Source: a virus. Taken from it: 21,158 bases of DNA. The translations under genes and the position numbers were made by a program. Positions within the stretch are counted from its first letter, which is position 1, and every line of letters starts with the position of its first letter. Under the pieces are notes generated by a model. The model made no database searches, had not been told where the DNA came from, and worked only from the letters and a program-made list of their open reading frames with translations. This document shows, one piece after another, positions 77 to 21,158 of the stretch. The stretch lies in the IMG/VR virus record IMGVR_UViG_3300027779_000196, positions 1 through 21,158 of that record; one strand, 5' to 3'.

Positions 77-298
77 TTACTTATTCAGCAATCCTAATAT
101 CACCAATAGTGATATAAATCCAGCGAATCCACTTGTTGCAAACAAATTCACTAAACTAATTAGATTACCAATAATATCCATACCGAAGAACCCGCCAACA
201 AAAATCAGTTGAACGAGAACCCCAAGACCGATAATAGATAATAACACGTCTTTAAGACTTGCTACCATATCTACTACCATTGTCATAGTATTTTTCAT
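77..298 (-). CDS. Small two-helix membrane protein, holin-like in size
   Basis: This 73-residue protein is the only convincing gene on the - strand. It has a short charged N-terminus (Lys2, Asp10, Lys16), a hydrophobic segment at about residues 18-38, and a second region at about 45-71 ending LGLLNK, so two membrane helices are likely. The middle (GMDIIGNLISLV) is Gly/Ile-rich and could be amphipathic. A G-rich Shine-Dalgarno-like stretch (AGGGGGAAA on the - strand, 304-312) precedes ATG, and a strong terminator follows the stop. Small proteins of this build are, from memory, common in marine T4-like phages. A holin or other membrane-active role is possible by size and topology but is not shown by any motif. 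Confidence 0.7.
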   Translation of the reverse strand: MKNTMTMVVDMVASLKDVLLSIIGLGVLVQLIFVGGFFGMDIIGNLISLVNLFATSGFAGFISLLVILGLLNK

Positions 299-2832: not shown

Positions 2833-3240
2833 ATGGCAAGAAGTGTAAGAGAGATAGATAGAAATGATGACAAGTATGTCGGAATAGAATTTCCATTGGG
2901 ATATAGTCCAGAGGGATTTTTCTATAAGACAAAAACTGTATTACAACAATCTAAAGCAAACTTACGAAACTTGTTATTAACCACACCAGGTGAAAGAATA
3001 ATGCAACCAGAATTTGGTTCTCAATTGAAGAGTATCGTATTTGAACAAGGACAAGATATTCCAAATAGAATTGAAGAAGTTGTTCGTTCAGCGGTTGATA
3101 AGTATTTAGCATATATTAATATTAATAATGTTTTCACTATACAAGAAGATAATGTAGTTAATGTTTCAATTGAATATTCGGTTCCATTAAATCCCGATGA
3201 CATTGAAGTATTAAATTTTGATTTTAGAATTGGAGAATAA
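2833..3240 (+). CDS. gp25: gp25-like baseplate wedge protein
   Basis: At 135 residues it is close to T4 gp25 (132). The diagnostic core is present: after a helix (about 36-50) comes TTPGERIMQPEFGSQLKSIV at 50-69, the conserved turn and strand shared by gp25, phage P2 gpW and T6SS TssE. A helical segment (77-92) and the C-terminal strands (VNVSIEYSVPLN at 109-120) complete the fold. In contractile tails this protein sits in the inner baseplate and helps start sheath assembly. No clear Shine-Dalgarno precedes the ATG (TAATAAATA lies directly before it), so translation may depend on coupling to the gene ending six bases upstream. It is followed two bases later by gp6, a common phage gene order. 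Confidence 0.93.
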   Translation: MARSVREIDRNDDKYVGIEFPLGYSPEGFFYKTKTVLQQSKANLRNLLLTTPGERIMQPEFGSQLKSIVFEQGQDIPNRIEEVVRSAVDKYLAYININNVFTIQEDNVVNVSIEYSVPLNPDDIEVLNFDFRIGE

Positions 3241-3242
3241 GA

Positions 3243-5198
3243 ATGCCAGATTATGGAACAAATAAAAAGTTAATCAGTAAGGAAGTAAATTATCTCGGTA
3301 GAGATTTTACAGACATAAGAGCAAATTTAATTGAGTTTGCTAAAACATACTTCCCAACTCAATACAATGATTTTAATGAAGCATCACCAGGAATGATGTT
3401 TGTTGAAATGGCATCGTATGTTGGTGATGTATTGAATTACTATGTTGACAATCAATTCAGAGAAACACTATTACATTATGCAGAAGAAAGAAAAAATGTA
3501 TTAGCGATTGCTCAATCATATGGATACAAACCAAAATTAGCAACACCATCAACGGTTCAATTGACCGTTAGTGTTGAGGTTCCAGCGAAAGTTGTTGGTT
3601 CTAACTATCAAGCAGATTTAGATTACGCTGGAATATTAAGTTCTAACTCAACCGTATCATCAAACAACGGAGCAGAATTTACTTTATTAGATGATGTTAA
3701 TTTTAAAGCATCAAGTTCATTAGATAGAATGGTAGTTGAATTATTAGACCCACCATCAGGAGCAACACCAGCACTTTTCAGATTATCTAAAAAAGTATTA
3801 GCACAATCAGGAACAAGAGAATCAGAAGATTTTAGTTTTACAACTGCAAAAGAATTTGATAAAATAGTTTTATCAAACGATAAGGTAACTGAGATTATAT
3901 CAGTAACGGATAGTCAAGGAAATACTTGGTATCAAGTTCCATTCTTAGCACAAGACACAATATTTGAATCAGACCAAAACACAACACTTACTGACCCCGA
4001 TTTAGCTGAGTTTGAAATGGATACACCATACTTATTAAAATTAATTAAATCATCAAGACGATTTACAACTTATGTTCGTGATGATAATAAAATGGAATTG
4101 AGATTCGGTAGTGGTGTTAGTGATAATCCTGATGAAGAAATAATTCCAAATCCAGATAATGTTGGTTCATCTTTAGGTATGGGTATTTCAAGATTAGACG
4201 AGGCATTTGACCCGAGTAATTTTTTAAAAACTCAAACATTTGGATTGGCACCAAGTAGCACAACTCTAACCGTAAATTATAATTATGGTGGAAGAGTAGA
4301 AGATAATGTTCCAAGTAACACTATAAATAAGTTTAGTAGAAAAGTATATACAATTTCTACCGAAGGAATAACAGGAGCAGATAAAGAAACTTCTGAACAA
4401 AGTATATCAATTACAAATGAAAGTCCAGCATCAGGTGGTTCATCAACGGAAACCCTTATACAAATAAAAGAAAATGCAGCTGCATACTTTAATGCACAGA
4501 ACAGAGCAGTTACAAAAGCAGACTACATTACGAGAGCTTATTCATTACCACAAAAATATGGTAACATCGCAAAGGCATATATTGTTCAAGATGAACAATT
4601 AGAAAAAAAGCAATTATCTATAAATGACGGAGTGATACAAACAATTACTGCAGATAAATCTAATCCATTAGCATTGAATATGTATTTATTAGGATACAGC
4701 GCAGATAAAAAATTAGTTGCTTTGAATAGAGCAGTAAAACAAAATTTAAAAATATATCTTTCACAATATAGAATATTAACAGACGCAATCAACATTAAAG
4801 ACGGATATGTTATCAATGTTGGTGTTAAGTTTAATATCATTGTGAAACGAGGATACAATAAAAATGATGTATTGTTTAGAGCAATACAAAAAGTAAAACA
4901 ATTCTTTGCACCAGACAAATGGCAAATCAATCAACCGATTGTGTTGACTGACTTGGCATATCAAATTTCATTAGTGGACGGAGTAGTATCCATTGTTCCA
5001 CCAGAAGTTAATAATCCAAATCAAGATTTGATATTAATTGAAAACAAACATAAGGTTGTAAATGGGTATAGTGGTAATGTGTATGATTTAAAATCAGCAT
5101 CACAAGAAGGAATTATATATCCTTCATTAGACCCAAGTATATTTGAACTTAAATTTCCCAATAGTGATATTGAGGGTAAAGTAGTGGGAGATAGATAA
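3243..5198 (+). CDS. gp6: gp6 / baseplate J-like wedge protein
   Basis: The 651-residue product matches the size of T4 gp6 (660), the wedge protein whose dimers form the baseplate iris. The N-terminus (15-97) carries the typical pattern: NYLGRDFTDIRANLIEFAK, then a FNEASPGMMFVEMASYVGDV segment and a helix ending with QSYGYKP. The central beta region follows. At about 411-452 lies the conserved AYFNAQNRAVTKADYITRAY segment of baseplate-J proteins, and at about 530-600 a ferredoxin-like alpha/beta region ending in a TDLAYQISLVDGVVSI-type segment. It begins two bases after gp25 and its stop overlaps the next start (TAATG at 5196-5200). The assignment is firm at family level. Confidence 0.92.
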   Translation: MPDYGTNKKLISKEVNYLGRDFTDIRANLIEFAKTYFPTQYNDFNEASPGMMFVEMASYVGDVLNYYVDNQFRETLLHYAEERKNVLAIAQSYGYKPKLATPSTVQLTVSVEVPAKVVGSNYQADLDYAGILSSNSTVSSNNGAEFTLLDDVNFKASSSLDRMVVELLDPPSGATPALFRLSKKVLAQSGTRESEDFSFTTAKEFDKIVLSNDKVTEIISVTDSQGNTWYQVPFLAQDTIFESDQNTTLTDPDLAEFEMDTPYLLKLIKSSRRFTTYVRDDNKMELRFGSGVSDNPDEEIIPNPDNVGSSLGMGISRLDEAFDPSNFLKTQTFGLAPSSTTLTVNYNYGGRVEDNVPSNTINKFSRKVYTISTEGITGADKETSEQSISITNESPASGGSSTETLIQIKENAAAYFNAQNRAVTKADYITRAYSLPQKYGNIAKAYIVQDEQLEKKQLSINDGVIQTITADKSNPLALNMYLLGYSADKKLVALNRAVKQNLKIYLSQYRILTDAINIKDGYVINVGVKFNIIVKRGYNKNDVLFRAIQKVKQFFAPDKWQINQPIVLTDLAYQISLVDGVVSIVPPEVNNPNQDLILIENKHKVVNGYSGNVYDLKSASQEGIIYPSLDPSIFELKFPNSDIEGKVVGDR

Positions 5199-6364
5199 TG
5201 CATTATTTTGAATTTGGAAAAAGAGATGCGAGCATTTATTCAGGTGGAACAACAGCTTCCATTAATACTGGACTAGATGAAATATTAGAAATTAATAAAG
5301 TTGTAAACAATAATGGTACGGTAGGTAATGTATCAAGAGTATTGATTGATTTTGATTTAGCATACATTTCACAATCCATTCAAGAAAGTAAAATACCTTC
5401 AACGGCAAAATATTATTTAAATTTATTTGACGCAACTTCACAAGAAGTTGAAGCAGAACAATCACTACATATCTATATGGTAAGTGGTAGTTGGAAACAA
5501 GGAACAGGAAAACTTGACCACGACCCAGTAACTTCAGACGGAGTAAGTTATCAATATCGTGACCACGATGCGAAAACACCTTGGGTAACAGGTTCAGTAT
5601 TGACTGAGGGTGGTGCTTGGTTTACAGCAAGTTACGCTTCTGGTCAAGAATATGGAGTTAGTTCTTCATACGATTTAACATTTGATAAAAAAGATGTTAG
5701 AGCAGATGTAACCGACTTAGTGAAGAATTGGATTTATTCAAGTTCTATTTACCCGAACAACGGGTTTATTGTTAAACGAGAAGATAGTGGTTCATATGGA
5801 AACAATCACGCAACAGCTAGTTTTGATTTCAATACAGGACAAGAAGGTGATGGAACTCGTTTAGGAAATCTAAAATATTTCTCAAGAGAAACCCATACAA
5901 TCTATCCACCTAAATTAGAAGTGGAGTGGGATGATTCAAGTTGGTCAACAGGAAGTTTATCGGCATTAAGTTCAACAGATTTGGAAAGATTAAAAGTTTA
6001 TTTTAAAAACTTGAGAACAGAATATAAAGAAAAAACAATTACAAAATTAAGAATAGTTGGTAGAGAATTATATCCAACAACTGCTTTTTCAACAACACCA
6101 GGTGAATTAGATGTTAAATATTTACCAAGTGCATCTGCTTTCTACTCAGTTAGAGACGCAGAAACAGAAGAAGTAATTATTCCATTTGGTAGTGGTTCTA
6201 AGATTAGTTGTGATAGCACAAGTAATTTCTTTAACATACAAATGGATGGATTACAAGCAGAGAGGAATTATCGTTTTTGTCTTAAAGTAGTTAGTGGCAG
6301 TGGAACGACTGATGAACAGATTAACTTTTATGATGATAACTATGAATTTAGAGTGGTGAGATAA
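5198..6364 (+). CDS. Baseplate-adjacent protein with DNRLRE-like beta domain
   Basis: This 388-residue beta-rich protein has residues 1-250 resembling DNRLRE-type modules: an N-terminal strand DASIYSG, a long strand RVLIDFDLAYI, the segment DVTDLVKNWIYSSSIYPNNG, then LKYFSRETHTIYPPKLEVEW. That order (Asp-Val-Thr-Asp helix, Trp, NNG-F strand, SRE, Pro-Pro-Leu-Glu-Val) is what I know of the family, which is usually found in extracellular or carbohydrate-active proteins. The C-terminal part (about 300-388) looks like a second beta sandwich. The start overlaps the gp6 stop by one base, implying translational coupling. A peripheral baseplate or adhesin role is an inference. The T4 counterpart by position would be in the gp7/gp8 area, but I see no sequence resemblance to them. 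Confidence 0.75.
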   Translation: MHYFEFGKRDASIYSGGTTASINTGLDEILEINKVVNNNGTVGNVSRVLIDFDLAYISQSIQESKIPSTAKYYLNLFDATSQEVEAEQSLHIYMVSGSWKQGTGKLDHDPVTSDGVSYQYRDHDAKTPWVTGSVLTEGGAWFTASYASGQEYGVSSSYDLTFDKKDVRADVTDLVKNWIYSSSIYPNNGFIVKREDSGSYGNNHATASFDFNTGQEGDGTRLGNLKYFSRETHTIYPPKLEVEWDDSSWSTGSLSALSSTDLERLKVYFKNLRTEYKEKTITKLRIVGRELYPTTAFSTTPGELDVKYLPSASAFYSVRDAETEEVIIPFGSGSKISCDSTSNFFNIQMDGLQAERNYRFCLKVVSGSGTTDEQINFYDDNYEFRVVR

Positions 6365-12961: not shown

Positions 12962-12983
12962 TTTAACTTTCTTATATTTATTA
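12962..12983 (+). promoter_or_regulatory. Two-part motif, copy 2 (TTTAAC, 7 bases, TATTTATTA)
   Basis: Positions 12962-12967 read TTTAAC and 12970-12983 read TCTTATATTTATTA. Of 22 bases, 20 match the copy at 15770-15791. It lies in the 79-base gap after the giant tail gene, ending 42 bases before the ATG at 13026. It may be a phage-specific promoter or processing site; no terminator hairpin is seen in the gap. Confidence 0.5.
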
Positions 12984-13025: not shown

Positions 13026-13706
13026 ATGGGATTTTTAGACAACACAAGTATAACAGTAGACGCAATTTTGACCAAAAAAGGTCGTGAACTTTTGGCAAGA
13101 GGGCAAGATGAATTTAGAATTACAAAATTTGCATTAGCAGATGATGAAGTAGATTACAATCTATGGGACACATCACACCCGAATGGTTCAAACTATTACG
13201 GAGCAGTGATTGAAAATATGCCTTTATTAGAGGCGTTCGTAGATGAAAATCAGCTAATGAGATATAAATTAACAACACTTCCAAAGGAAACAGCAAAACT
13301 TCCTATATTGGAATTACCAAGTCCATCATTAACTTTCAATGGAGCAGGTATTACACAAACCGTTTCACCAAATACCCGTAATGGTATGGATAGTTCATAT
13401 ACATTTACATTATTTAATGCAGATGTTGCGAACTTATCTTTAAGTGGTGGTTCAGCAGCCCCACGACAAAGAAGATTCTTACCTAATGGTGAAGTAGAAC
13501 AAGACTTTGGTGGTAGAGCAACTACACCAGTATTCTTAAATGAAGCAGAAAGAAAACGTTCTATTACAGTTGTTGGTAAAAGTGTGAGAGTTATCTCAAG
13601 GTCTTTAACAACACTAACAAATACTAACATTTCAGTTACGGGTAATCAGTCAGGTGCAAATTTCACAATATCGTTAACCGTAAAAGCTGACCCAAGTAAA
13701 TTATAA
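13026..13706 (+). CDS. Conserved structural (tail appendage) protein
   Basis: This 226-residue protein begins MGFLDNTSITVDAILTKKGR, then ELLARGQDEFRITKFALADD, an N-terminal module that I recall from structural proteins of T4-like marine phages, although its role is unknown to me. Residues 85-226 are beta-rich, ending with VTGNQSGANFTISLTVKADP, which looks like an Ig-like or fibre-type strand pattern. ACAGGAG gives a good Shine-Dalgarno about ten bases before the ATG. Together with the next two genes it forms a group of appendage proteins. No signal peptide is present, as expected for cytoplasmically assembled virion parts. Confidence 0.8.
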   Translation: MGFLDNTSITVDAILTKKGRELLARGQDEFRITKFALADDEVDYNLWDTSHPNGSNYYGAVIENMPLLEAFVDENQLMRYKLTTLPKETAKLPILELPSPSLTFNGAGITQTVSPNTRNGMDSSYTFTLFNADVANLSLSGGSAAPRQRRFLPNGEVEQDFGGRATTPVFLNEAERKRSITVVGKSVRVISRSLTTLTNTNISVTGNQSGANFTISLTVKADPSKL

Positions 13707-14768: not shown

Positions 14769-15767
14769 ATGTTCAAAAATCTTGACCCACAAGACGTATC
14801 AAAGAAGTCTTTTCAGACATTCAAAAACTTCACATTCAATAACAATGATAGTGGGAGTGGTGTATTTGCAGTAAAAGCCCGTAGTGGTTCTTTATTCAAT
14901 TATGTTAGCGCTTCTGACGATGTTACAACAATAACAACAGGTTCAATCTCAACAAATTATTTTTCATTACCGAATTGGTATTTGTTAAATAATCTATTTT
15001 ATTCTTCACACGGACAAGATTATGTAAATCCAGAAGTATCAAATAGACAACTACATTTATCAGCATCAGTAATTAGTGTTGGTAGAGAATTGTTTGGTGA
15101 ACAGATTAAACCAGGTTCAGTAATTTTATCCGATACATCATTGGGAGCTACAAGAGATATACGAGACGACGCAGAAGGTAATCTTTACGACAATGCTTTT
15201 TCAGCAAGTTTCGCAGCATTTAAATCAGGTTCTAAAGTGAATCAAGTTTTACCATTTACCATAACGGGTTCATCAACACGAGGTAGTGGTAGTGTAGTGG
15301 GAAATGTATTTTACGAACAAGGATTATTAGTATTTACAGATACTGGTTCATATCGTGAAACAGGACACGGAACAGGTTACACATTAAAATATCAAGCAAC
15401 ACAAACTCACTATGAATATGAATATCGTATACGAGTTAAACCACGTGAATACAATACAACAACAAATATCAGTACAACACCAGATAGAAGTGGTAGTATG
15501 ACAATGGTAGAGGGTGTTGTATCTATGTCTAACTTCTTTCCACCAAGTCATTTACCGACTGGACAAGGAACTGGAAGTTATGCTACATTTTATAACGCAG
15601 TAACTGAATCATTATCATTTACTACAAATACAGAATTTAGACCTTATGTAACCGAAATTGGTTTATATAGTGAAAATAGTGAACTATTAGTTCACGGAAA
15701 ACTAGCGAAACCTATCAAATTATCAGACGATATCGAAACAACATTTATTGTTCGCTTTGATGTCTAA
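14769..15767 (+). CDS. Tail appendage structural protein, paralogue B
   Basis: The 332-residue product shares the layout of its upstream neighbour: PGSVILSDTSLGATRDIRDD matches the GSSVRLIDDSGATT block, NVFYEQGLLVFTD matches LFYPDLGLILLN, and YRIRVKPREYNTTTNIS matches YFVRANNKNFNFSTNPT. At the C-terminus, YVTEIGLYSENSELLVHGKL then AKPIKL matches ITQVGLYNDDNELL. Similarity is low overall, so the duplication is old or the two were acquired separately. It begins nine bases after the previous stop, with AGGAC as a weak ribosome site. It is the last recognisable virion gene before the envelope-gene block. Confidence 0.8.
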   Translation: MFKNLDPQDVSKKSFQTFKNFTFNNNDSGSGVFAVKARSGSLFNYVSASDDVTTITTGSISTNYFSLPNWYLLNNLFYSSHGQDYVNPEVSNRQLHLSASVISVGRELFGEQIKPGSVILSDTSLGATRDIRDDAEGNLYDNAFSASFAAFKSGSKVNQVLPFTITGSSTRGSGSVVGNVFYEQGLLVFTDTGSYRETGHGTGYTLKYQATQTHYEYEYRIRVKPREYNTTTNISTTPDRSGSMTMVEGVVSMSNFFPPSHLPTGQGTGSYATFYNAVTESLSFTTNTEFRPYVTEIGLYSENSELLVHGKLAKPIKLSDDIETTFIVRFDV

Positions 15768-15769
15768 TT

Positions 15770-15791
15770 TTTAACAATCTTATATTTATTA
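15770..15791 (+). promoter_or_regulatory. Two-part motif, copy 3 (TTTAAC, 7 bases, TATTTATTA)
   Basis: TTTAAC at 15770-15775 and TCTTATATTTATTA at 15778-15791 are nearly identical to the copy at 12962-12983. It ends 25 bases before the ATG at 15817 and so would control entry into the envelope-gene block. The spacer is only 49 bases, and most of it is this motif plus a Shine-Dalgarno (CGGAG). Confidence 0.5.
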
Positions 15792-15816: not shown

Positions 15817-18777
15817 ATGTTTCGTTTTATAAAAAATACGGTTATGACAGCAGTTATGTTTGGATTTGTCTTTGCACAAAGTCCAATCATAAGAGTTAAA
15901 CAAATAGGTGAATGGAAAACACCAGAGTATTGGTGGAAAGCACAAGAGACTGTAACACTACAAACATTTTTAGCAGATGATATAGCAACACCAGCTTATA
16001 CAAATAATAATTTTGATTCTTGGAGAGATGACATTTTAGAAATAGAAGTCACTCTTGACGATGTAGGTCAAGATATTACTACATTTAGATTTGATATTGC
16101 ATTTGACAACGATTTAATAACTTGGGTTGAAAATGATGGAACTACACAAGAAACATCAGTCAATGCTTGGACTCAAGGAAACTCACGAGTAATTAAAGGT
16201 AGTCAAATATCAGGTTGGACTGAAGGTGATGAAACATCAAACAATTCAACAGACTATTCATTTGAAGTAGTTCATTATTCAAATGTAGGATATACAGATA
16301 CTATTCAAAGTAGTGGTAATGAAACTTCAGCAACCGATACAGGTTATGATTGGTTAAGAATTACTATGGTATCACACGGAGTTGATATCGCTGAAAATAG
16401 TGGAGCAGGTGATGGAGTACCAGATTTTACATTCGGTAATGGTTCTGGAAATCAAGCACAAGTCCTTAAATTAACATTTAGAATTAATGATGTAGTTGAT
16501 AATTATCAACCAAAGTCATTTAGAATCCCAACACTTTATAGTGGTGGTAGTGGATATTATACTTATGTATCTGATGATTATCTATTAGATTATAAAGTTT
16601 ACATAGATGGTAATTGGGGAACTGATTCAGTAAACAATGGTGGAGCAAGAGGAGATTTATCTCTACATCCGAAATTAGTTGACATTGAAGGTTTCGGTAG
16701 ATACATTGGTGAAAAGACCGACACAGATAGTGACGGAGTAGATGACGATACATTTGTTCAAAAAACTTATCCTTATTGGAAAGTTGTATTCGAATTAGAT
16801 GAAGCTAATCCAGATGTAGATGGTGATACACCATTTGCTAATTGGTATAATATAGAAAGTATCGCTGATGACGCAAACACAACAGATGAGGATTTATCTG
16901 ATGATGTTATAGGAGACGCTAGTGGAACATATTACTATCTGAAATTAACAGACACAACCACACCAACAGCTTTAGCATCACAAACTTTACCAGGAACTGG
17001 ATTCTTAGGAGTATCATATTTTGATTACACCTATACGGATAAAAATGGATATTACAATATTCAATTACCAAGAAACAATACTTATCGTGTATCGTTCTGG
17101 CCACCAGACGCAAATGATGATATCGGTTCTCACTCACAATTAGAATTAGATAGAGGAGCGATTACAAACATTAATGACGCAATCGCAGCATTTAATTTTC
17201 AATCAAATAAATTTACAAATGAAACAAATATTAATGTAGATTCACCAAGTGCTTATTTAATTGGTGATGTAGACGGAGATGACTTATTCCAATTGAATGA
17301 TGCTTACTTTATATGGGCATACACAAGTGGAGTATTTTCAACATCATATACTCACGTTAATGGGAATTCATATCAACAATGGTCAAGTATTGATAATTTA
17401 AAAGCAAATGGACAAACACAAACTCTCGCGTATTATCAAGCACTTAGAGGTGGAGATACAAAACAAAGAAGAGAATTTACAGCATTTTGGGATGACGATT
17501 TACCACAAGAAACAACAACACTAACACAAGATGCTGGTGGAGTTATTTGGTTAAATGCTTTAATGGATGATGTCGTAACAGGTAATGATACTTTACAAGT
17601 AGTAGTATTGGCTGGAACATCAACCTTTGATGACCCAGATGTAACAACAGACGGAGATGTAAATCCAGATTATATACAAGATGAAATAGCACTTTACTTT
17701 ACTGGTGATATGAATTTATCAGGAACAAGAGTATTGGAAACATCTCAAGGTGCAGACGGATATCAAGACGCTTACACAGGAACAACATATTATCGTTGGT
17801 CAACACACACGGTTCAGAACGGAAGTTCAGGAGATAGTTCTTGGAATCAAAATTGTGTAAATGCAAGTTGTGATGACGCACCAACAGCTTGGACATATAC
17901 CAACACAAACAACACTTATGATGGAAGTAGTAGAAGTATGAACTCAACAGAAGGTGTAAGTTTATCATTACCAGATGACGGAAGTGTTAAAGTTCAAATG
18001 GGTAATCAAGTTGTAGTTCCTTTGACAATTACACCAACAATAGATGAGTTAACAGGACTACCAACTAAGGTAGCAGGGTTTGAATTTGAAGTCAGATATA
18101 AAGAAGAACAACTTCAATTTATTGACGCTCAAACAGGACTTTTACCAGGACCTTGGTTAACTTATTTAAATGAAAGTGAAATTGATGATGAGGGATATAA
18201 GATAATTTCATTTGGAGCATTAGATAACTCACCGAACAATGCACCACAAGATTACTACATAACAGAGGAAATGGTTGGTTTACAATTAGTATTTAATTCA
18301 AAACTAAATGAAAACAATAACCAAGAGTGGACAGAAGCAGACTTACAATTTGTAGGAAAAGCTAACGCTGGTAATCCAGCAGGTGATGACTTGTTTATGA
18401 ATAGACAAAGTGGTAAGATTAGAATATGGAATAAGTTTTGGGCATTCGGTGGTGGACAACCAAACGAAGATGAAATGACTTATGTTTATCCAAATCCATA
18501 TAATGATAGTGAACACGAATCTATTAACTTCCAATTCTTTATGGAACAAACTGGACACGTGATGATTAGTATTTATAACGCTAATGGACAAAAAGTTGGA
18601 ACTATATTGGATGAAGTCGTTAATGACGGAATGCACACATACACTTTCTCAGACTTACCAGATGTAATAGGTGAAGGTGGATATGGTGGATATGAAGACT
18701 TACAACCAGGTATTTATCTATTCGTAATGGAAACAGAAAACAAAATTAAGTCTAAGAAATTTACAATAATTAAATAA
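15817..18777 (+). CDS. Exported multidomain protein with type IX secretion C-terminal sorting domain
   Basis: The 986-residue product has a signal peptide (basic MFRFIKN, hydrophobic core, cleavage probably after VFA at residue 20). A cohesin-like beta domain may span about 72-230 (ILEIEVTLDD, TTFRFDIAFDNDLITW). Acidic calcium-loop-like sequences follow (DTDSDGVDDD near 308; a dockerin-like GDVDGDDLFQLNDAY at 483-497). A second cohesin-like domain covers about 708-860 (VKVQMGNQVVVPLTI, AGFEFEVRYKEEQLQF). The last 99 residues form a T9SS type A-like sorting domain: YVYPNPYND at 889-897, GHVMISIYNANGQKVGTILD, GMHTYTF, and a terminal GIYLFVMETENKIKSKKFTI segment. Such domains direct outer-membrane passage and surface attachment in Bacteroidetes and relatives. 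A PorV/PorQ-like gene follows nine bases later. Cell-surface location is likely; a virion role is unlikely given the signal peptide. Confidence 0.85.
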   Translation: MFRFIKNTVMTAVMFGFVFAQSPIIRVKQIGEWKTPEYWWKAQETVTLQTFLADDIATPAYTNNNFDSWRDDILEIEVTLDDVGQDITTFRFDIAFDNDLITWVENDGTTQETSVNAWTQGNSRVIKGSQISGWTEGDETSNNSTDYSFEVVHYSNVGYTDTIQSSGNETSATDTGYDWLRITMVSHGVDIAENSGAGDGVPDFTFGNGSGNQAQVLKLTFRINDVVDNYQPKSFRIPTLYSGGSGYYTYVSDDYLLDYKVYIDGNWGTDSVNNGGARGDLSLHPKLVDIEGFGRYIGEKTDTDSDGVDDDTFVQKTYPYWKVVFELDEANPDVDGDTPFANWYNIESIADDANTTDEDLSDDVIGDASGTYYYLKLTDTTTPTALASQTLPGTGFLGVSYFDYTYTDKNGYYNIQLPRNNTYRVSFWPPDANDDIGSHSQLELDRGAITNINDAIAAFNFQSNKFTNETNINVDSPSAYLIGDVDGDDLFQLNDAYFIWAYTSGVFSTSYTHVNGNSYQQWSSIDNLKANGQTQTLAYYQALRGGDTKQRREFTAFWDDDLPQETTTLTQDAGGVIWLNALMDDVVTGNDTLQVVVLAGTSTFDDPDVTTDGDVNPDYIQDEIALYFTGDMNLSGTRVLETSQGADGYQDAYTGTTYYRWSTHTVQNGSSGDSSWNQNCVNASCDDAPTAWTYTNTNNTYDGSSRSMNSTEGVSLSLPDDGSVKVQMGNQVVVPLTITPTIDELTGLPTKVAGFEFEVRYKEEQLQFIDAQTGLLPGPWLTYLNESEIDDEGYKIISFGALDNSPNNAPQDYYITEEMVGLQLVFNSKLNENNNQEWTEADLQFVGKANAGNPAGDDLFMNRQSGKIRIWNKFWAFGGGQPNEDEMTYVYPNPYNDSEHESINFQFFMEQTGHVMISIYNANGQKVGTILDEVVNDGMHTYTFSDLPDVIGEGGYGGYEDLQPGIYLFVMETENKIKSKKFTIIK

Positions 18778-18785
18778 GGAGTATT

Positions 18786-19640
18786 ATGAATAAATTATTA
18801 AGTTTATTATTATTAACAGGAACACTATTCGCACAGGCAAATAGTATATTTACATTGAACCCAAGTGTTCATAGTGCAGGAGCAGGAAATTCAGGTATTG
18901 CAGATTTAAATTCTAAAAACCTATTTCATAATCCAGCATTTGCAGGACTTGAATCACACCAAGAAACATCATATGTAAAATGGTTACCAAACCTAACAGA
19001 TGATATGGGATATCAAAATCTACAATACACAAGTGGTATGGGATTTTCCGTAGAAGTATTTTACTTTGATTACGGAACTCAAACAGCCGCAGATATCGGT
19101 GGTATCATAACAGGAGAGTTTGATTCATCATCACTAAGAGTTGGTGGAAGTTATGCTATGGAATTGGGAGATTGGTTATTGGGTGCAAGACTTAATCTTT
19201 ACAATCATACTTTTATTGATGATATAGATATTGATATGAATTATGGAGTTGATATCGGTGCGTATAAAGTATTCGGTAACACATCATTGGGTCTTGTATT
19301 AAAAGACTTAGGTGGTGATACTAAATTTTTAGACCAATCAACAAGTTTACCAATGTCATTAGGTATTGGTGTTAAACAAAGCTTTGGTAGTTTTAGTTTA
19401 CTATCAGATATAAAACTATTTGAAGATTATTCTTCATTTGGAGTTGGCGGTGAATATTTATTAGGAGAAGTAGGTAATTTAAGATTAGGGTATTATTCAG
19501 AACCAGAATTTAATGTTGATTACATCACAATAGGTGGTGGTATCAATACTAATGTTGTGGATATATCATTAGCATATCTTTACAATACCGAGAGTTTCCA
19601 CAACGAAACCTTAATGATTTCATTTGGGTTTGATTTTTAG
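18786..19640 (+). CDS. PorV/PorQ-like outer-membrane beta-barrel protein
   Basis: The 284-residue product has a signal peptide (MNKLLSLLLLTGTLFAQANS, cleavage near residues 16-18). The N-terminal segment resembles the PorV/PorQ/UPF0164 group: NPSVHSAGAGNSGIAD at 25-40, then LFHNPAFAGL at 46-55 and ETSYVKWLPNL at 60-70. The rest is a series of amphipathic strands with Gly/aromatic alternation, ending in FGFDF with a terminal Phe, the usual signal for outer-membrane barrel insertion. PorV carries sorted cargo from the T9SS translocon to the attachment complex, and PorQ helps anchor it. At 284 residues this one is shorter than typical PorV (near 390). A Shine-Dalgarno AAGGAG spans the gap behind the cargo gene. 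PorV-like versus a generic barrel cannot be settled by eye. Confidence 0.72.
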   Translation: MNKLLSLLLLTGTLFAQANSIFTLNPSVHSAGAGNSGIADLNSKNLFHNPAFAGLESHQETSYVKWLPNLTDDMGYQNLQYTSGMGFSVEVFYFDYGTQTAADIGGIITGEFDSSSLRVGGSYAMELGDWLLGARLNLYNHTFIDDIDIDMNYGVDIGAYKVFGNTSLGLVLKDLGGDTKFLDQSTSLPMSLGIGVKQSFGSFSLLSDIKLFEDYSSFGVGGEYLLGEVGNLRLGYYSEPEFNVDYITIGGGINTNVVDISLAYLYNTESFHNETLMISFGFDF

Positions 19641-19723: not shown

Positions 19724-20128
19724 ATGGCAAAAAAAGTAGTAGATACAGAAAAAATGTTAGATGATGCTCAGAATAAAAAATTCGGTTTATCAATAACAAA
19801 CATTGTAAGTATAGTAACGGTGTTATCAGGTTTGATAGCAGGTTGGTATACATTTACAGGTAGAATAGATTCATTAGAAGAAGTAGTTGAAGGATTTGCA
19901 GAAGCAAGTGATATAGAAATAGTCACTAACAAAATCCAAAGTTTTGATGATGATATCATTTACCTAAGAGAAAAATTAGATACCGTAGGTGAAGTTGATT
20001 TATCACCATTAGAAAAAGATATAGTAAATCTTAATCGTGATATTAAAGAACTTAAAGGTTCTATCAGAAGTCTTGCAAAAGAGATTGAAGACTTTCACGG
20101 TGACCCATTAGCAAAGTTTAAAAAATAA
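19724..20128 (+). CDS. One-pass membrane protein with periplasmic-type coiled coil
   Basis: The 134-residue product has a basic, Lys-containing N-terminus (1-19), one hydrophobic helix at about 22-44 (LSITNIVSIVTVLSGLIAGW), and then a long charged helix with heptad-like spacing (46-120, e.g. SPLEKDIVNLNRDIKELKGS). Positive charges before the helix suggest N-in, C-out topology. That layout is shared by phage inner-membrane spanins (Rz type), but also by many unrelated membrane coiled-coil proteins, and no sequence link to Rz is visible. The GAGG ribosome site is good. The stop overlaps the next start (TAATG at 20126-20130). Role unknown; lysis or envelope scaffolding are options. Confidence 0.75.
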   Translation: MAKKVVDTEKMLDDAQNKKFGLSITNIVSIVTVLSGLIAGWYTFTGRIDSLEEVVEGFAEASDIEIVTNKIQSFDDDIIYLREKLDTVGEVDLSPLEKDIVNLNRDIKELKGSIRSLAKEIEDFHGDPLAKFKK

Positions 20129-20271
20129 TGGATATCTTTAAAACAAAAAAAGCCAAAATAAAATCAATTCAATCACAATTAAGTGATAAGAATTCTAATC
20201 TATCATTAATGAAAAGATTAATTCTTATGGTGCAATTGATGATATTGGGATTTGGTAAAACAGAAAAATGA
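20128..20271 (+). CDS. 47-residue basic/hydrophobic mini-protein, coupled to both neighbours
   Basis: The start codon shares one base with the upstream stop, and the TGA stop overlaps the ferredoxin ATG by four bases (ATGA at 20268-20271). Such double overlap is strong evidence that this short frame is translated. The N-terminus is Lys-rich ([20 protein letters not shown]) and the C-terminus is hydrophobic with Met/Leu/Ile ([19 protein letters not shown]), so it may sit at or in the inner membrane. No family is recognised. It could be a small partner of the coiled-coil protein or mainly serve to couple ferredoxin translation. Confidence 0.6.
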
Positions 20272-20555
20272 CTTTTATCATTACAGACCCGTGTATCGGG
20301 ACTTGTGACACAGCTTGTGTAGATGTTTGTCCAGTGGATTGTATTCACGGACCAATAGATGTAACGGGCGCAGGAGCAGAAGTTCCAGGATTAAAAACAT
20401 TAGACGGAATGCAATTGTATATTGACCCGGAAGAATGTATTGATTGTGGTGCTTGTGAGCCAGAATGTCCAGTTGACGCAATATATGACGAAGATGCTGC
20501 ACCAGATGATATGCAAAAGTTCATAGAAATTAACGCAAACTTTTTTAAGGGGTAG
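20268..20555 (+). CDS. Ferredoxin, 7Fe ([3Fe-4S][4Fe-4S]) bacterial type
   Basis: The 95-residue product has cysteines at 9, 13, 17, 21 and 25 ([18 protein letters not shown]) and at 57, 60, 63 and 67 ([17 protein letters not shown]). In 7Fe ferredoxins the first motif is C-x7-C-x3-C-P: here Cys9, Cys17 and Cys67 would hold [3Fe-4S], and Cys21, Cys57, Cys60 and Cys63 [4Fe-4S]. Cys25 matches the free cysteine of the family, while Cys13 is extra. A 31-residue insert between the motifs (28-56) is a little longer than in short 2[4Fe-4S] ferredoxins. It would carry low-potential electrons in the cytoplasm. Partner enzymes are not in this window. It starts inside the previous stop with no clear Shine-Dalgarno, so translation is probably coupled. 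Confidence 0.9.
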
Positions 20556-20559
20556 AAAA

Positions 20560-21158
20560 ATGAAACATATATTAAGTTTATTTATAACATTATTTTTATT
20601 AGGTTGTGCAACATCACAAGTTGAAGCACAATCAGGTAAAACAAAAGTCCAATCAAAGATAGCTTCATATGAAGCAGAAAAAACTCTTGATGATATCAAG
20701 TGGTTTGATGGAGAACCTGAAGGAGTTCAGTTGATTCAGATTTCCATTTCAGAAAATATTCTAAATGCCTATCCAGAACTTCGTGATAAACGAGTTGGAT
20801 TCGGTGTAACTAATAGAATTATTGAAGTCTTGGAAGAAGCAGGACGATTCTACTTCGTTGAAGAAAAAGAAGAAGTGATTAACAAAATGGTTCAAGAATG
20901 GGAAAGAAGTGTTAGTGGATTGCTTGACAATGAATTAGATAGTGTTGGACAATTTGCGCAAACTAAATACTTTGTATATGCAGAATTGTATGACTTTGCA
21001 GTATCCAATCAAGAAGAAATATCAAGAAGAAAAGTAAAATTAAAAAATACCACAATGGTTGGTATTCAAGTTCGTCTTGTTTCAGTTGAAACAGGTAAGT
21101 ATATTACGGGTAGTGGTTTAGGAACTTCAGCAAAAGAAGGTGAAGGACTATTAAAAAA
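20560..21158 (+). CDS. csgG: CsgG-like outer-membrane lipoprotein (partial, runs off window)
   Basis: The first 199 residues are visible and the frame is open at the right edge. A lipoprotein signal is clear: MKHILSLFITLF followed by lipobox LLGC with Cys16, then ATSQ, so outer-membrane sorting is expected. Within the mature part, VGFGVTNRIIEVLEEAGRFY, FVEEKEEVINKMVQEWE, TKYFVYAELYDFAV and VGIQVRLVSVETGKYITGSG follow the pattern of the CsgG/HfaB family: helix, a strand ending in a Phe-Val-Glu 'who is degraded' turn, an Ala-Glu-Leu strand, then a Val-x-Leu-Val-x-Val-x-T-Gly strand. CsgG forms a nonameric outer-membrane pore for curli subunits. CsgG-like genes are known in some marine phages, from memory. 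AAGGGG lies eight bases before the ATG. Curli partners CsgE, CsgF and CsgA are not seen. A LpoB-like or other CsgG-fold lipoprotein is the main alternative. Confidence 0.75.
   Translation, partial: MKHILSLFITLFLLGCATSQVEAQSGKTKVQSKIASYEAEKTLDDIKWFDGEPEGVQLIQISISENILNAYPELRDKRVGFGVTNRIIEVLEEAGRFYFVEEKEEVINKMVQEWERSVSGLLDNELDSVGQFAQTKYFVYAELYDFAVSNQEEISRRKVKLKNTTMVGIQVRLVSVETGKYITGSGLGTSAKEGEGLLK

Follow-up and report, generated by a model that had tools for sequence, protein, structure and literature searches.

A putative type IX secretion cargo with a PorV/PorQ-type neighbour in a conserved envelope cassette of T4-like phages

Introduction

Why would a phage carry, directly behind its tail genes, a large protein tagged for the type IX secretion system (T9SS)? 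The question is posed by one stretch of viral DNA, an entire linear IMG/VR record of 21,158 bases (IMGVR_UViG_3300027779_000196) that we term the window. A first-pass annotation, made from the letters of the window alone, had noticed an apparent T9SS sorting domain on a 986-residue protein, and had proposed that a phage sends this protein to the host surface as a new kind of envelope takeover.

We argue below that the gene, on balance, probably encodes the cargo of a surface-export module carried by the phage, a reading that is drawn from sequence comparisons. It is based on the sorting domain of the protein, a PorV-type neighbouring gene, an all-or-nothing gene cassette, the phage context, a shared promoter-like motif, purifying selection and a presumptive host that bears a T9SS. 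The presumptive host phylum, Marinimicrobia (SAR406), is a numerous group of ocean bacteria with few cultured members, and there is, to our knowledge, almost no work on what its phages do to the surface of the cell.

Results

A conserved protein with a type A sorting domain

The cargo gene and its terminal domain are located as follows.

15817 to 18777, + strand: T9SS cargo, 986 aa, with exact open reading frame boundaries
18484 to 18768, + strand: C-terminal type A sorting domain (TIGR04183; cargo residues 890-984)

Residues 890-984 score 31.1 bits against TIGR04183, for which the NCBI cut-off is 23, and the sorting domain reported by the first-pass annotation is thereby borne out. The annotation would have given the domain up had it scored below the cut-offs for sorting domains; on this point the NCBIfam model upholds it, whereas PF18962, the Pfam model of the same domain, gives 18.5 bits, under its cut-off of 27. 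Relatives of the cargo match TIGR04183 independently, including 12 of 14 close ones (the remaining two break off ahead of the domain) and all 13 divergent full-length ones. The domain is present in every full-length relative tested, down to about 50% identity. The N-terminus, MFRFIKNTVMTAVMFGFVFAQS, is signal-peptide-like by inspection and is also conserved in relatives. Comparison with four relatives gives dN/dS values of 0.15-0.24, indicative of purifying selection, and the gene is therefore not a chance open reading frame.

Besides these two ends, the protein contains a cohesin-like N-terminal region, a dockerin/EF-hand-like motif (GDVDGDDLFQLND, residues 483-495) and a second cohesin-like region at about 712-872, which precedes the sorting domain. 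A structure model of the cargo has a mean pLDDT of 37 and is unusable save perhaps for its C-terminal third; Foldseek searches with this low-confidence model return cohesin matches with TMt values of 0.6-0.7. These cohesin-like folds and dockerin/EF-hand-like motifs would suit an adhesin, by which an exported cargo sticks infected cells to each other or to particles and so brings progeny into contact with more hosts. A precedent of sorts is provided by the T9SS cargos of Cryophage, which are reported to be carbohydrate-active or PA14 proteins (PMC7468147). However, the match to the cohesin family PF00963 falls just short (23.1 bits, cut-off 24.1), and a Pfam search detected no carbohydrate-binding domain in the cargo. 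We consider adhesion or aggregation an unlikely main role.

A PorV/PorQ-type barrel encoded next to the cargo

Only a few bases separate the end of the cargo gene from the start of a second gene.

18786 to 19640, + strand: PorV/PorQ-family outer-membrane barrel, 284 aa, with a signal-peptide-like N-terminus (assigned by NF033709, Foldseek and profile comparison)

The protein scores 101.5 bits against NF033709, the PorV/PorQ family model (cut-off 90), and 17 of 18 phage members match this model at E<=0.001. It falls well below the equivalog cut-offs for both PorV (NF033710; 56.5 bits, cut-off 250) and PorQ (53.9 bits, cut-off 220), and for this reason we assign it to the PorV/PorQ family rather than to PorV proper. 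Its AlphaFold model has a pLDDT of 73.5, and the two top PDB matches found by Foldseek are both PorV of the T9SS translocon (8gl6_F, E 6.7e-11; 6h3i_F, E 1.8e-10; TMq 0.70). A profile built from 18 divergent phage barrels has a single sequence match in the PDB, the PorV of 6h3i, with an E value of 2.4e-13.

Type A cargos of Flavobacterium require PorV (PMC12618676), and T9SS substrates bind the extracellular loops of their carrier within the SprA pore (PMC10994853). The comparisons made here support the view that one phage operon specifies two partners, a T9SS cargo of type A and a carrier of the PorV type. It could be argued instead that the neighbour is a generic barrel with no relation to the T9SS, that the cargo uses the PorV of the host, and that the two genes are linked only through a shared cassette. 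The missed equivalog cut-offs fit such an arrangement, as do the five other envelope genes in the cassette (see below) and the separation of the phage PorVs, as a single clade, from those host PorVs that were sampled. We think this improbable: the best matches in both fold and sequence are specifically to T9SS PorV, and the barrel always accompanies the cargo.

When set against a limited sample of host PorVs, the phage PorVs form a single clade with long branches. Recent capture of a host PorV was rejected on the basis of this tree, subject to the same limited host sample.

A seven-gene cassette that is present as a whole or absent

The cargo and the barrel occupy a site bounded on the left by the tail-region gene J and on the right by two downstream genes, DS1 and DS2. 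The following additional features of this region are visible in the window.

14769 to 15767, + strand: tail-region gene J, 332 aa, the left border of the cassette, assigned by synteny
19724 to 20128, + strand: protein K, 134 aa, a cassette member with one membrane helix and a coiled coil
20268 to 20555, + strand: FdxA-like ferredoxin, an optional passenger whose best cellular match among those listed is in Marinimicrobia
20560 to 21156, + strand: CsgG-like lipoprotein, incomplete because the contig stops within it (about 234 aa at full length in relatives)

The full cassette comprises seven genes. Besides those for the cargo, the PorV-type barrel, K and the CsgG-like lipoprotein, there are genes for a secreted, barrel-like protein of 328 aa, for a second CsgG-like protein, and for a membrane/coiled-coil protein that ends in a DUF6808-like stretch. 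The annotation had not picked up the barrel or the cassette; the cargo is no lone gene but part of a conserved envelope block with a PorV/PorQ-type carrier.

The CsgG-like lipoprotein of the window gives 14.8 bits against PF03783 (cut-off 20.8, E 0.018), and none of the CsgG-like lipoproteins tested matches that family at E<=0.01. As the cut-off is missed, we use the name CsgG-like only. Profile comparison indicates that the two CsgG-like genes are paralogues. Profiles of the CsgG-like lipoprotein, the 328-aa barrel and the second CsgG-like protein have no meaningful match among PDB sequences.

The FdxA-like ferredoxin is an occasional extra passenger of the cassette. Ferredoxins of this type are 74-98% identical among several cassette phages, lie elsewhere within the cassette in two divergent ones, and may be auxiliary metabolic genes.

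To take a census, viral contigs were scanned with a gene downstream of the region, which yielded 80 loci. All 19 loci that bear the cargo also have PorV and the other members, with the exception of one in which K is unrecognised. Conversely, 52 loci have J and DS genes without the cargo. All of these lack every cassette member at that position, and in the majority J lies right against DS1. No PorV was found anywhere in eight empty-site phage contigs of 64-165 kb, and none of the seven cassette genes is present in the 165-kb contig. This same 165-kb phage (L417) encodes at 3599-6337 a 912-aa protein that resembles a TonB-dependent outer-membrane receptor with a carboxypeptidase-regulatory-like start. 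Cargo and PorV co-occur in every contig that extends far enough, and although cargos diverge to about 50% identity and PorVs to 22%, the members of the cassette remain together.

Four relatives (L359, L363, L387 and L391) have a different block between J and DS1/DS2. It encodes a signal-peptide protein of 426-428 aa, a lipoprotein, thioredoxin-like proteins and a K-like gene. The occurrence of another conserved block in the same slot suggests that the site is a hot spot for envelope cassettes.

A promoter-like motif shared with a tail gene

The sequence TATATTTATTA occurs exactly twice in the window, once ahead of the cargo and once ahead of a tail-region gene.

12973 to 12983, + strand: promoter-like motif TATATTTATTA, exact match, 53 nt ahead of tail gene H (13026)
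13026 to 13706, + strand: tail-region gene H, 226 aa, assigned by synteny and kept in relatives
15781 to 15791, + strand: promoter-like motif TATATTTATTA, exact match, 36 nt ahead of the cargo start

In aligned relatives the core of the motif before the cargo is largely conserved and is followed by a GGAG ribosome site. Across six phage contigs, including the window, exact matches to a 10-base form of the motif number 22 on the coding strand and none on the other strand. That the cargo and gene H have the motif in common suggests that the cassette is expressed with the tail genes, late in infection. Such apparent late timing is no less compatible with the protection or release of progeny than with early exclusion, and it argues against superinfection exclusion of the classical early kind.

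Two other functions come into question. According to the first, the cargo and barrel would serve as a decoy that occupies SprA and stops the export of host surface proteins, including any phage receptors. A complex of carrier and substrate does occupy the SprA pore during export (PMC10994853), and here both partners of the transport intermediate come from the phage. Jamming is nonetheless hard to reconcile with a long, conserved cargo body under purifying selection, which would be needless in a mere plug, and it leaves the five other cassette genes without explanation. We judge it to have little chance of being correct.

According to the second, the CsgG-like, barrel and K-type proteins would open the envelope at lysis, with the cargo as a helper. 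The apparent late expression is compatible with such a release module, as are the weak resemblance of K to Rz-like spanin and XhlA families and the presence of envelope-type cassettes with a K-like gene at the same site in the four relatives noted above. However, most relatives have no cassette at the site, no holin or endolysin was recognised in the cassette, and the spanin matches are at the coiled-coil level only. A function in release appears no more probable to us than jamming.

The cassette belongs to a T4-like phage lineage

Virion structural genes are encoded upstream of the cargo on the same strand.

2833 to 3240, + strand: baseplate wedge gp25 (PF04965, 45.5 bits, cut-off 27.2; PHROG 261)
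3243 to 5198, + strand: gp6-like baseplate wedge (PHROGs 219 and 6, E 1e-19 to 1e-18), with 422 IMG/VR relatives

The cargo begins 49 nt downstream of gene J, also on the same strand, so that the position behind virion genes described by the annotation is correct. At the far left of the window (77-298, - strand), a 73-aa hydrophobic open reading frame is kept in many relatives just upstream of the tail module.

About 50 IMG/VR contigs from many samples have the cargo straight behind the same tail genes. Scanning viral contigs with the cargo recovered 33 further contigs with 58-94% identity, in which the order of tail genes is the same wherever the contig reaches. When contigs were selected by gp6 rather than by the cargo, 15 of 21 have the cargo. 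None of the six that lack it shows a loss, because all end around J: three within J or about 100 nt past it, and three at or before J.

A 70.7-kb contig of the window's sublineage contains the cassette from the PorV end onward, and its 39 PorV residues are identical to those of the window. This contig encodes a large terminase, a portal and a major capsid protein that are 62-70% identical to those of the 165-kb relative, whose proteins match the PHROG terminase, portal and major head families. With the gp25/gp6 baseplate, these genes identify the lineage as T4-like myoviruses, which are large and marine. Among the INPHARED isolates, neither the cargo nor PorV has a match; gp6 relatives in that collection, 40-46% identical, come from Microcystis phage Mel-JY01 and from Flavobacterium phages.

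These data answer several checks that the first-pass annotation had set for its claim, namely that terminase, capsid and portal genes be found, that related phages keep the cargo gene, and that the DNA not be a bacterial chromosome. Although the ferredoxin, PorV and sorting domains are genes of cellular type, the idea that the window is host DNA, a mis-assembly or the end of a bacterial chromosome fused to phage tail genes is essentially refuted by the terminase, portal and capsid genes on a cassette contig, the same gene order in about 50 contigs from many samples, and the lack of a full-length cargo homologue in 244 Marinimicrobia genomes.

A presumptive host with a T9SS

The host is probably a member of Marinimicrobia, a phylum that bears the T9SS. 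Behind this assignment are phage contigs in Marinimicrobia bins and a single gene, the ferredoxin, of a horizontally mobile kind. Among the matches listed from species-representative genomes, the best for the ferredoxin is Marinimicrobia MED647 (68%), and ferredoxins of this FdxA-like kind are common in Marinimicrobia. The ferredoxin match in genome G056 (L300) is on a cellular contig and not on a phage. Bins of three of the 244 Marinimicrobia genomes contain related phage contigs (L319, L320 and L321). One phage contig from a Marinimicrobia bin is collinear for 19 kb and its cassette site is empty, and the closest such contig is without the cassette. A search of the whole window's DNA for CRISPR spacers gave no clear spacer, and instead brought up these three phage contigs.

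Searches for T9SS genes, like those for binned phage contigs, covered Marinimicrobia genomes. PorU is above cut-off in 93 of 120, SprA is present in 14 of 15, and sorting domains are present in all 15 examined for them. In small genomes of 0.8-1.0 Mb (e.g. G129, G133 and G095), a full-length SprA is accompanied by a PorV-like gene of 311 aa and by 2-4 proteins with sorting domains, but PorU does not reach its cut-off, and the T9SS is thus reduced or divergent. In small SAR406 genomes where the best-scoring PorV occurs without such a PorU, the attachment step may differ.

A cargo profile run against the 244 Marinimicrobia genomes matches in the sorting domain only, and these matches add to the link with this host; a scan of genome contigs with the cargo found no cargo. 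Recent capture of a host cargo was rejected on these profile matches. In favour of the annotation's claim of a phage-borne T9SS cargo are the sorting domain itself, a phage context that is conserved, and a presumptive host phylum that bears the T9SS.

Discussion

A model for surface export

We propose that the cassette would be transcribed late, together with the tail genes, from the shared promoter motif. The cargo would reach the periplasm through Sec and would be exported by SprA, the T9SS translocon of the host. The PorV-like barrel of the phage would then take hold of the C-terminal domain of the cargo, in the manner of host PorV with type A cargo, and the cargo would end up displayed on the outside of the infected Marinimicrobia cell. 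There, more speculatively, its cohesin- and dockerin-like modules would allow it to stack or cross-link as a coat. Because the cargo model is poor, the coat idea leans on weak domain matches.

Receptor masking, exclusion and aggregation, the purposes put forward in the first-pass annotation, are treated here as hypotheses. The likeliest use of the surface-export module, which we advance only tentatively, would be a coat that, at a late stage of infection, conceals phage receptors or blocks them. Such a coat would spare progeny from loss on the dying cell, on debris and on infected neighbours, and would bar competing phages.

A broader reading, which we hold to be somewhat doubtful, is that the cassette forms a terminal T9SS branch owned by the phage, which builds a phage-specified coat or organelle on the infected cell, and that the site is a slot for alternative envelope-takeover modules. 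The phage would supply the carrier, outer-membrane pores, barrels and a single cargo, and would borrow only the translocon and motor of the host.

The paired cargo and carrier suggest that a phage remodels the surface of its host cell during infection. Within the literature searched, this would be the first phage known to encode part of a T9SS. The pair also makes a testable claim of a cognate type A C-terminal domain and PorV, and the phage carriers, which span 22% to 99% identity to the barrel of the window, offer a natural series of carrier-cargo pairs for the study of carrier specificity. Finally, the site defines a genomic slot in which phages appear to swap envelope-modifying cassettes.

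Comparison with known systems

We know of no relation in sequence or pathway between the phage cargo and the Llp lipoprotein of phage T5. Llp is not a T9SS cargo, and it is as a phage outer-membrane protein for superinfection exclusion (PMC9586334) that it serves as a model for the proposed purpose. Closer in architecture are type B cargos with a dedicated PorP/SprF shuttle, in which the cargo gene is likewise followed by the gene for its own carrier (PMC12618676); in contrast, the present pair combines a type A sorting domain with a PorV-like carrier. The 284-aa barrel has the fold of T9SS PorV and belongs to the same sequence family (PDB 6h3i and 8gl6; PMC10994853), but is shorter, under the PorV equivalog cut-off and phage-encoded. 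The phage barrel is linked to one cargo, in contrast to bacterial PorV, which handles every type A cargo.

Phage open reading frames with T9SS sorting domains have been reported before (PMC7468147, PMC6949934), and the annotation's description of a new kind of takeover must be narrowed to this extent. In cluster 2 of the gut BACON-domain phages, such open reading frames lie near structural genes; these are other phages with other hosts, and the available part of the report describes no carrier or conserved cassette (PMC6949934). The literature search found no report of a phage-encoded PorV or of a cassette of this kind. For Cryophage, from cryoconite, type A sorting domains in phage proteins are thought to use the host system, and the cargos (an endoglucanase, a GH39 protein and a PA14 protein) are among the variable genes, with no PorV mentioned in the portion of the report available (PMC7468147). 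By comparison with that portion, the lineage described here has one cargo family fixed alongside its own PorV-type gene and five additional envelope genes. Phage proteins with T9SS tags are therefore already known and, as far as our searches reach, the new part is the PorV-type carrier and the cassette that accompany the cargo.
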